Part shown: positions 3,941 to 7,414 of the stretch, piece by piece
How positions within the stretch are numbered: position 1 is the stretch's first letter
Layout: every line of letters begins with the position of its first letter
Origin: Planctomycetota bacterium
GTDB taxonomy: Bacteria; Planctomycetota; Phycisphaerae; Tepidisphaerales; Tepidisphaeraceae
Assembly: GCA_039182125.1 (NCBI GenBank)
Contig: JBCDCH010000047.1
Coordinates: forward strand, 1 to 32,726
Length of the DNA: 32,726 bases
Reading direction: 5' to 3'
Notes under the pieces: model-generated
What the model was told of the DNA's origin: nothing
The model's database searches: none
Seen by the model: only the letters and a program-made list of their open reading frames with translations
Made by a program: the position numbers and the translations under genes

Positions 3941-3972
3941 GATTCAAACGTGACTGAGCGGGTCGACGCATG

Positions 3973-3978
3973 TATCCT
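3973..3978 (+). promoter_or_regulatory. Putative -10 element of the fasciclin-domain gene
   Basis: TATCCT is separated by 6 nt (AGTTCC) from ATG 3985. It favours this ATG over the one at 3970, which lies upstream of the hexamer. Confidence 0.55.
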
Positions 3979-3984
3979 AGTTCC

Positions 3985-4866
3985 ATGAATAGGGGCCAAG
4001 CGTTCCAGGTCATTTCGGCGTTGATGTTGTTGACCGTCACCGGCCTGTTGGTCCCGACGGCTAAGGGCACTTCGGTCGATATGCGGATACCTTCGGCGGA
4101 GCGTTCCGACTCGGCGTGGCAGGCGTTGTCGGTCACCGGGGAACACCACACCTTCCTCCGTCTCCTCGCCGTCGCGGGAATGCAACGGGTGCTCGACAGC
4201 GAACACGCCGTCACCGTCTTCGCGCCAACCGATGAGGCGTTCGCCGGTTTCGGCGATGACCGGCTGGCCGAGTTGCTCGATGAGCCGGGACACGCGGAGT
4301 TGCGGCGATTGCTCGGCGGGCACATCGTTTGGGGTGTCTTCGACACGACCAAGGTCACCGGGCTCTCACTCCGTCCGAACGTGGGCGGGTTCACGCTTCG
4401 GCTCACGCCGGACGAATCGGGCGATGCACTGCTGTTGGCCAACGACGTGGCGGTGCGGCCGCTGGAACGTGCATCCGCGCACGGCTCGGTCTTCCTCACT
4501 GATCAACTCATCACGCCGCCGCCAATGACTGCGGCCGTAGCCCCGACGCCGCATGCCCCGGACTGCCACGGCAACCCGCATCAAAGCGGTGGCGGCGAAC
4601 TCGCCCTCGGCGGCGGAGCCAGCTCATCCGACGGCGAGTCTTCTTCGGGTGAAAAGTCCGATCGCGGCGGGGCCGGGGCCAACAACGGCGAGACGACTGC
4701 GACAAGTGAAAGCCAACGGACAAAGGTCGTCGGCAACTCGGTACTAGGTGGCAGCGCTCGCGGCGGTGGCAGCGGTAGTTTAAACAGCCCCGGCGGTGGG
4801 TCTGGTGGAAGCTCGGAACCGCGCTCCAACGGCAGGCCGGGTGGCGGCGGTTGCAGTTGCCAGTAA
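3985..4866 (+). CDS. Secreted fasciclin (FAS1) domain protein with Gly-rich tail
   Basis: The protein has 293 residues. A signal peptide-like N-terminus (basic MNRGQ, then a hydrophobic core around VISALMLLTVTGLLV) is followed by one FAS1 domain at roughly 40-170. The first conserved block is TVFAPTDEAF, and GGHIVWG stands where FAS1 proteins have their second His-containing block. FAS1 domains usually mediate adhesion or carbohydrate and matrix contacts outside the cell. The last 100 residues are low-complexity Gly/Ser-rich and end in Cys-Ser-Cys-Gln, which is unusual. The gene converges with the methyltransferase gene with only 7 nt between their stops. Confidence 0.8.
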   Translation: MNRGQAFQVISALMLLTVTGLLVPTAKGTSVDMRIPSAERSDSAWQALSVTGEHHTFLRLLAVAGMQRVLDSEHAVTVFAPTDEAFAGFGDDRLAELLDEPGHAELRRLLGGHIVWGVFDTTKVTGLSLRPNVGGFTLRLTPDESGDALLLANDVAVRPLERASAHGSVFLTDQLITPPPMTAAVAPTPHAPDCHGNPHQSGGGELALGGGASSSDGESSSGEKSDRGGAGANNGETTATSESQRTKVVGNSVLGGSARGGGSGSLNSPGGGSGGSSEPRSNGRPGGGGCSCQ

Positions 4867-4873
4867 TCCTACA

Positions 4874-5671
4874 TCACCCTTGGCGCGTCGCGAGGTTGAC
4901 GTAATAGGACTCAAGAATCAGGTCGCCTGGCTCACACTGCGCGAACTGTGCCTGGGCGTCCATCCATTTGGGGTCGTTGTCATCGAGGCCGAGGAACTTC
5001 GCTCCCGGCCCTAGGTAGACGCCGCTGAGGTTCTTCGCCGCCGCTCGGTAGCCATCGGGATCGGTGCCGACGGAAATCTTGGGATAGAGAAACGTGTCGA
5101 TTTTCCCGAACCCGGCTTCCTGGGCGGCGTTGTTGACCTTGCGGCCGACGAACGGGTCCGGGCCTTGGCGTTGCATCGCCGTTTCCCAAAGCGCGATCGC
5201 CGACTCGATGGCCGGCTTGGGCGGATAAAACGTGAGCGTTTTGCCGTCAGGTTCGAACGAGTACAACACGCCGCCGGGCTTGAGCACGCGATACGCCTCG
5301 GCCACCGCAGCCCGAAAGTCCCGGCCAATGGCCCAGAATACGAGATTTGCAAACACGAAATCGAAGCTCTCGTCGGCCAGCGACATCGCCGTGGCGTCCA
5401 TGACCTCGAAGCGTTCGCCGGGAAACTTCGCCTTCGCATCGGCGATCGCCTGGTCTCCGAAGTCGATGCCGGTGTAGTCGATGCCCGGCTCGATCGACCG
5501 CAACAACGGCACGTTCGAGCCGATCCCACAACCAAGGTCAAGCACGGCACGTCGACCGGCGAGTACCTCGCGAAGGCCGGGCCGGTCGTGGATTCGCGAC
5601 TGGAGGTCGAGCCGGCCCTGCTCGGCTTCGGGGTGGCCCAACGGATAGAGGTCTTCGACGTTCGCGGCCAT
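4874..5671 (-). CDS. Class I SAM-dependent methyltransferase
   Basis: The 265-residue protein has the Rossmann methyltransferase signature. Motif I is VLDLGCGIGSN near 45-55, an acidic residue ends the next strand (YTGIDFG), VMDATAMSL follows, and the post-motif YRVLKPGG marks type-11 methyltransferases of UbiE/ArsM style. It transfers a methyl group from SAM to a small molecule that the sequence does not identify. An AGGA Shine-Dalgarno sits 6 nt before ATG 5671 and overlaps the TAG stop of the lyase-like gene upstream. The two genes are 8 nt apart and clearly co-transcribed. The C-terminal third has no recognised domain and may set substrate choice. Confidence 0.85.
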   Translation of the reverse strand: MAANVEDLYPLGHPEAEQGRLDLQSRIHDRPGLREVLAGRRAVLDLGCGIGSNVPLLRSIEPGIDYTGIDFGDQAIADAKAKFPGERFEVMDATAMSLADESFDFVFANLVFWAIGRDFRAAVAEAYRVLKPGGVLYSFEPDGKTLTFYPPKPAIESAIALWETAMQRQGPDPFVGRKVNNAAQEAGFGKIDTFLYPKISVGTDPDGYRAAAKNLSGVYLGPGAKFLGLDDNDPKWMDAQAQFAQCEPGDLILESYYVNLATRQG

Positions 5672-5679
5672 GGAGCTTC

Positions 5680-7269
5680 CTAGTTCGGTGGTTCCGACGC
5701 GTACCGCCGGTAGTGGTCGTTGTGCTGGCCCGACGGATGCTCGACATGTTCGCCGGCGAAGTGGTCGGGCAGATCGCCCAGCAACGCGCTCTCCAGATCA
5801 CGTTGCTGGCCGTCGACGACGCCGGCAAAACGGTCACGCAACAGGTGCAGGCTCGAACCGAGATGGCTGACGGCTTCCTTGGTGTCGATCAGGGGCGCGA
5901 CCTCCCGAATCGCGTCATGCAGCGCACTCAGCTTGGGCGGAGCCGGCCGATCAGTGAGCAGCAGCGCCTGGCTCGCCGCGATGGCCAGCGTCGCCATGGA
6001 CGCATCGAACGCCTCGCTGGCTTCGAGGTAGCGCTCGTATGACGTGAACGTGAACGACGCCACGTCTGCCTGCCCGCCGTGAGGATCTTCCAGACCGAGC
6101 GACAACACGGACGGGCGGGCATTGTCCTTGGCCCGCTCGGCGTGGCTGTTCTGGATCCAGGCCAGGTACTCCATCCCGATGATCCCCGAACCTGGCGGGA
6201 TCAACAGCGGCGGCAACCCGAACGCCTGACCGTCGAGCAGCCGCGCGATCTGTTTCGACGCGAGCGAACACAAGTCGGCCAGCGACGCGTTCACACCGTC
6301 GATCGCCCGGCTGGCCTGATGATTGTGAAAGCCGCCCGACGAAATGAACTGCCCGTCCGGATTCTTGTCGTTGGGCGGGAGGAAGATCGGATTGTCGGCC
6401 ACCGTTTGCATCGACGTGGTCGCCACGCATTCCGAACGCCCCACCGCATGGACGGCCGACGCGAGAATGTTGGGCAGCACACGAAAACTCACCGGCGCCT
6501 GCCCAGGCCGCGACGTGAAGTTCGCGGGGTTCGGCGGCACCCCGTCGAGCAGTTCGTTGATCATCCGGATCGCGGTGCGTAAGTCGCCGTCTTCGATGAC
6601 CTCCAGCAACGCGTCGCTGTAGTGATCGAGACACGCGTTGGCCCCCTCGATCGCCATTACGAAGACACGCACCGCGAGGATCAACCGCCGGCGTGCCGTG
6701 AGCGCGACGTCGGTCACCATCCCCACGGCGAACGGCGCCCCGTTGATCAACGCCATCGCCTCACCCGGAGCAAGCTCACAGCCCGACATCGGGCTCAGCA
6801 GAAAGCTCAACGGCAACACTTCACCGGGTCCGTTGGCACTGTCGAACGGAACGCAGGCGTCGCCATGCTCGAGCAGGCCGACGACTTTCTCGACCGTCTC
6901 GGCACGGATCTTGCCGTAACCATCGAGGTAGTTGGACAGGCGGGCCATCACCGCAATACGGGACACGTGATGCGACAAACACCGGCCGCCGGTGCCGACC
7001 CGTGAGGGCAGGTAGTCAATCAGTCGAAGCCCCTGGTCGTTCTGGGCCTCGGGGTTGAGGATGCTGTGGGCACGCGAGCCGGGGCCGGTGGTGATGCCGT
7101 AGATGTACCGGCAACGATCGGAGTCGAGGATCTGCTCGAAGATGCGCCGCCCCTTCTCGATCTTGTCGATCGCGTCGGTGGAGAGTTGGATCCCGTGGTT
7201 GAGATAGCCGACCTTCCAGGCGCTGGCCAGATCGATATCGAATCTCGATGAAAGGGTGACGTCCGCCAT
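5680..7269 (-). CDS. HAL/PAL superfamily protein lacking the MIO Ala-Ser-Gly triad
   Basis: The 529-residue protein matches histidine/phenylalanine ammonia-lyases along its length: YGITTGPG near 57-64 (catalytic Tyr position), EAMALINGAP near 170 (Asn), PVSFRVLPN (Arg), ADNPIF, ISSGGF and a GLED segment. Active members cyclise an Ala-Ser-Gly triad into the electrophilic MIO cofactor. Here the aligned residues are Gly147-Pro148-Gly149 (6823-6831) in DSANGPGEVLPL, so the cyclising serine is absent. It may be a cofactor-independent lyase acting on an already activated amine, or a non-enzymatic homologue; histidine deamination should not be assumed. Start ATG 7269 is chosen because the frame upstream to 7347 looks unlike the family, but ATG 7347 is possible. 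It forms an operon with the methyltransferase and is divergent from argG. Confidence 0.8.
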   Translation of the reverse strand: MADVTLSSRFDIDLASAWKVGYLNHGIQLSTDAIDKIEKGRRIFEQILDSDRCRYIYGITTGPGSRAHSILNPEAQNDQGLRLIDYLPSRVGTGGRCLSHHVSRIAVMARLSNYLDGYGKIRAETVEKVVGLLEHGDACVPFDSANGPGEVLPLSFLLSPMSGCELAPGEAMALINGAPFAVGMVTDVALTARRRLILAVRVFVMAIEGANACLDHYSDALLEVIEDGDLRTAIRMINELLDGVPPNPANFTSRPGQAPVSFRVLPNILASAVHAVGRSECVATTSMQTVADNPIFLPPNDKNPDGQFISSGGFHNHQASRAIDGVNASLADLCSLASKQIARLLDGQAFGLPPLLIPPGSGIIGMEYLAWIQNSHAERAKDNARPSVLSLGLEDPHGGQADVASFTFTSYERYLEASEAFDASMATLAIAASQALLLTDRPAPPKLSALHDAIREVAPLIDTKEAVSHLGSSLHLLRDRFAGVVDGQQRDLESALLGDLPDHFAGEHVEHPSGQHNDHYRRYASEPPN

Positions 7270-7414
7270 GGTGACTCTGCCAAGCCCGAGCGACGGACCG
7301 TTCAATGACACATCGTGGTACGAGTTCAACCCGTAAACAACCGCCATTTGGGCCAGACGCGACTAACCCTTTCAACGCCGCACGCGTCCGATCGGCGGGA
7401 AGCCGTGCACGTCC

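Follow-up and report, generated by a model that had tools for sequence, protein, structure and literature searches.

A Lyase-Family Protein of a Planctomycetota Bacterium Lacking the MIO-Forming Tripeptide, With Predicted Trimethylamine-Eliminating Activity

The Lyase Gene and Its Neighbors

The window analyzed here is a stretch of 32,726 nucleotides from a Planctomycetota bacterium (assembly GCA_039182125.1, contig JBCDCH010000047.1). Its minus strand carries a frame free of stop codons from 5680 to 7347, which contains an intact ORF for an aromatic-amino-acid-lyase-family protein without MIO. The long frame begins with an ATG at 7347; a start at its Met27 (position 7269), which gives a protein of 529 amino acids (5680..7269, minus strand), is likelier because the Rhizobium relatives described below also begin at that point. 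With this start, the residue numbers 147-149 originally given to the altered tripeptide hold. The protein matches PF00221 with 170.2 bits (Pfam cut-off 27.3), and its scores against the HutH models TIGR01225 (118.6 bits, cut-off 539.15) and NF006871 (119.8 bits, cut-off 524) both lie far below the curated cut-offs. The intact frame stated in the original prediction is borne out. The GC3 of the lyase gene (0.83) resembles that of the neighboring genes (0.75-0.88), which is indicative of a functioning gene without decay.

A class I SAM-dependent methyltransferase gene (Methyltransf_11; 4874..5671, minus strand) follows, its ATG lying 8 bp downstream of the stop codon of the lyase, and the two genes are likely on one transcript. 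The best PDB match of the methyltransferase scores 50 bits, so that no close characterized match is available. Across 25 further genomes from the family the best hit reached 46 bits, and no close homolog was found there. On the opposite strand to the lyase gene, argG begins at about 7428. The methyltransferase gene converges with one for a fasciclin-domain protein (3970-4866), the end of which lies 7 bases away.

Loss of the MIO-Forming Tripeptide

The minus strand from 6831 to 6823 reads GGA CCC GGT, which encodes Gly147-Pro148-Gly149 in place of the MIO-forming Ala-Ser-Gly, as the original prediction had stated. In the alignment with Pseudomonas putida HAL, Pro148 takes the position of Ser143 and Gly149 that of Gly144, whereas Ala142 falls into a one-residue deletion, so that the loop (NG-PGEVLPL) is one residue shorter than that of HAL. 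The loop (HGDACVPFDSANGPGEVLPLS) holds no Ala-Ser-Gly elsewhere, and neither its sequence nor the alignment offers any other Ala/Thr/Ser-Ser/Cys-Gly tripeptide. The MIO-forming tripeptide has been lost from this protein. Every aligned PF00221 protein of the same class or phylum in which the loop is present keeps [AVTS]-[SC]-G; together with the intact ORF and the normal GC3, this argues that the Gly-Pro-Gly is neither a chance change nor an assembly slip.

PMC13405746, citing Maurer et al. 2019, describes ergothionase as an enzyme without MIO which releases trimethylamine. The loop of the Treponema denticola enzyme (PDB 6s7j, 6s7q) reads SSIG-EGDITTL against GSVGASGDLAPL in HAL, and it has lost the tripeptide with the same one-residue shortening (IGEGDI in ergothionase, NGPGEV here); for 6s7j we used the sequence shown in alignments between PDB entries and a related lyase from a Streptomyces plasmid. 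Since the aligned loops of our protein (SANG-PGEVLPL), the Rhizobium relatives (GQGG-AGEILAL), and ergothionase coincide, the pattern G-x-G-[DE]-[IV] is common to all of them. A deletion of about 25 residues after the loop is shared by the 529-residue protein and the relatives from R. jaguaris and R. tropici, whereas 6s7j retains this segment.

Active-Site Positions and Predicted Fold

Most of the active-site frame of HutH is present. Alignment with P. putida HAL, with codon coordinates read from the minus strand, identifies Tyr57 (7099..7101) with the catalytic Tyr53, Asn176 (6742..6744) with Asn195, and Arg263 (6481..6483) with Arg283, which contacts the substrate carboxylate; the Gln277 equivalent is also kept. 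The retention of Tyr, Asn, and Arg noted originally is therefore correct, with the refinement that three further positions have changed: His83 to Arg, Tyr280 to Val (Val260, 6490..6492), and Glu414 to Ala (Ala401, 6067..6069). All 16 MIO enzymes in the comparison have Tyr at the HAL Tyr280 position. In the five proteins with broken MIO motifs this position is aliphatic throughout (Val in the 529-residue protein and in R. jaguaris, Leu in 6s7j, Ile in the Streptomyces protein, and Leu in the Sinorhizobium protein), and the same five keep the equivalents of Tyr53, Gln277, Arg283, and Asn313. The combination of a G-x-G-[DE] loop with an aliphatic residue at HAL Tyr280 provides a simple way of recognizing MIO-free lyases from sequence.

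With ergothionase the protein also shares the equivalents of Tyr53, Gln277, Arg283, and Phe329, as well as the HAL fold. The two differ in that 6s7j keeps the His83 and Glu414 equivalents and loses Asn195, whereas our protein has Arg and Ala at the former positions and keeps the Asn. Identity between them is 19%, and identity to P. putida HAL is about 21%. An AlphaFold2 model, computed with same-phylum homologs as input (pLDDT 83, pTM 0.88), superimposes on HAL 1b8f with a Z score of 35.4 (rmsd 2.4, 477 aligned residues) and on 6s7j with a Z score of 35.3 (rmsd 2.3, 468 aligned residues). The model confirms a predicted HAL-type fold, and as HAL and ergothionase match it equally, it does not choose between them. 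We did not interpret the pocket because the confidence of the model is low at the loop stretch (block means 56-65).

Relatives and Phylogeny

Of the proteins found, the most closely related are encoded on megaplasmids of R. jaguaris and R. tropici CIAT 899, with identities of 33-35% (E 3e-48). The host's own taxa (26 genomes from its family, 396 more from the class, and a phylum sample of 392) yielded no close relatives, and the viral and phage collections contained nothing close to the protein. A single scan of genome contigs gave only a distant relative, with ACG in the loop. In a tree computed without the loop columns, our protein and the R. jaguaris and R. tropici proteins were joined with a support of 100/99, and all three share the GxGE loop, the post-loop deletion, Val at the Tyr280 position, and a QAPVS block. 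The Rhizobium proteins differ in having Gly-Ala-Gly rather than Gly-Pro-Gly and Asp rather than Ala at the Glu414 position. A clade of Gly-Pro-Gly proteins, for which the original prediction had suggested building a tree, was not found, as these nearest relatives have GAG.

On the best tree, 6s7j groups with the Streptomyces and Sinorhizobium proteins, apart from the clade of the 529-residue protein, whose own branch is very long (3.14). A clear grouping with T. denticola ergothionase is hence not obtained on the best tree, while a single MIO-free clade is not rejected by the AU test (p-AU 0.39 and 0.41) in a tree with very long branches. The best reading places our protein on a deep branch that is probably separate from the one of T. 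denticola ergothionase.

The Rhizobium Neighborhood and the Host Genome

The Rhizobium lyase gene is surrounded by genes for a LysR-type regulator, UbiX, UbiD, an M20 amidase, a hydantoinase-type amidohydrolase, and an ABC transporter with an OpuAC binding protein. The two hydrolases of this locus exceed the cut-offs of NCBIfam models: ErtD, the hydantoin-5-propionate amidohydrolase (760 bits, cut-off 600), the NCBI short name of which is ergo_util_ErtD, and ErtE, the N-carbamyl-L-glutamate amidohydrolase (575 bits, cut-off 520). Because the locus encodes both ErtD and ErtE, the Rhizobium lyase is, as far as we can infer, the obvious candidate for the first step, in which trimethylamine would be released. 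The Rhizobium sister would thereby connect ergothioneine breakdown, by which bacteria produce trimethylamine, with another MIO-free branch that has diverged deeply. The UbiX and UbiD genes lie at L035:5101-7074, beside ErtD, ErtE, and the MIO-free lyase. A neighboring NCBIfam model that we tried, NF058537, proved to be an unrelated regulator, and the name ErtD was not found in the open-access papers searched.

In our host, by contrast with Rhizobium, the lyase gene adjoins the methyltransferase gene and argG. The host genome encodes EgtB (534 bits, cut-off 360) and EgtD (375 bits, cut-off 290.9) side by side, and hercynine and ergothioneine are therefore probably made by the host. It has one OpuAC-type (betaine/EgtU-type) transporter, a fusion of binding protein and permease with ProX and EgtUC as best PDB matches. 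The gene for this transporter is not adjacent to the lyase gene, which counts against an ergothioneine substrate, as do the absence of the MttB family from the host genome and the absence of ErtD and ErtE equivalogs from it (best matches of 234 and 310 bits, below cut-off). The genome has no match to urocanase (HutU, PF01175) and no second PF00221 gene.

The sub-threshold ErtD and ErtE matches of the host lie together in one gene cluster (L102:5690-10345) with a uricase-like, an allantoinase-like, and a fused allantoate-amidohydrolase-like frame, and the cluster reads as one for putative urate/allantoin breakdown.

Possible Function of the MIO-Free Lyase

We predict, with a probability of roughly 55%, that the 529-residue protein works without MIO on a HAL fold and splits trimethylamine off ergothioneine, hercynine, or a similar betaine. 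Trimethylamine, not ammonia, is probably the group removed, because the nearest relatives sit among ergothioneine-breakdown genes, and the most likely substrate would be ergothioneine or hercynine. Tyr57 would take the beta proton of such a betaine while Arg263 would hold its carboxylate, and trimethylamine would leave unaided to give thiourocanate or urocanate, the MIO-forming loop having been shortened to G-x-G-E. By established chemistry trimethylamine departs far more readily than ammonia, and with so good a leaving group the electrophilic MIO would not be required here. In the cell, the enzyme may serve to turn over ergothioneine or hercynine, whether made internally or imported. The original prediction had already proposed a lyase acting on a quaternary amine without MIO, and four results support it: the loop aligns with that of ergothionase, the Tyr280 position is aliphatic in all MIO-free members compared, the Rhizobium lyase genes adjoin those for ErtD, ErtE, and a betaine-type transporter, and the host has EgtB and EgtD and no urocanase. 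On the other side stand the position outside the ergothionase clade on the best tree, although one shared origin is not rejected, the identity of 19% to the characterized enzyme, and the residues at the His83 and Glu414 positions, which differ from those of 6s7j. That such a gene occurs together with EgtB and EgtD invites the question whether organisms that make ergothioneine also recycle it or tune its level.

The gene arrangement admits a different substrate. The methyltransferase, encoded on the same strand directly after the lyase, may N- or S-methylate another amino acid to make the leaving group, so that the lyase would act on a quaternary-amine or sulfonium compound other than those above. 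The missing downstream Ert enzymes of the host and the Ala at the Glu414 position, unlike in 6s7j, would also fit, and we regard this as possible although unlikely, for the methyltransferase has no better PDB match than that of 50 bits, the Rhizobium relatives have no methyltransferase neighbor, and EgtD already provides trimethylated histidine. The stronger proposal that the two enzymes form a two-step elimination module outside ergothioneine metabolism, in which an amine or sulfur is methylated and then expelled, appears decidedly doubtful; if true, it would be an MIO-free route to alpha,beta-unsaturated acids. A protein that has kept the fold and is catalytically dead or repurposed, for example for binding or regulation, could likewise have lost MIO and the His83 and Glu414 equivalents, and its branch could be expected to be as long as the one seen here, with close relatives absent from the 396 other class genomes. 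Such a pseudoenzyme is nevertheless improbable, as the equivalents of Tyr53, Asn195, Gln277, Arg283, and Asn313 are all present, relatives encoded beside pathway genes show the same principal changes, and neither GC3 nor the reading frame is unusual.

An ordinary histidine or aromatic ammonia-lyase, with MIO formed from other residues or with a mis-aligned loop, is scarcely credible. The significant PF00221 match and the fact that the HutH models match best speak for it, against the lack of any suitable tripeptide in the loop, the loss of Tyr280, a HutH score of about 119 bits where 524-539 are required, and a host without urocanase. An identity as HutH was ruled out by these scores, by the loss of MIO against the loops of the same phylum, and by the protein being the sole PF00221 gene product of a genome without a urocanase partner; that the host has EgtB and EgtD, with neither urocanase nor a second ammonia-lyase, also argues that it is not HutH. 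MIO-free members of this superfamily are seldom recognized, and annotation by similarity would tend to call the 529-residue protein a histidine ammonia-lyase, a liability to mis-calling that had been anticipated.

Other Lyases With a Broken MIO Motif or an Aliphatic Residue at Tyr280

Further lyases of this kind were noted on plasmids. The protein encoded at L068:8001-9518 of a Sinorhizobium terangae plasmid has a broken MIO tripeptide (KGSAGYLTHNAH), its Tyr280 position is occupied by Leu, and it closely resembles HutH (476 bits, cut-off 539); its gene adjoins apparent amino-acid-type ABC transporter genes and one for an FAD amine oxidase. A Streptomyces chartreusis plasmid (L071:5845-7395) encodes a lyase that has GASDL instead of GASGDL, carries Ile where HAL has Tyr280, and counts 6s7j among its best PDB matches (237 bits). 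A lyase from the same phylum as our host (L033, G060:C537) shows QDPLSFR, that is, Leu at the Tyr280 position; its loop lies beyond the contig end, and judging from this residue the protein is perhaps MIO-free.
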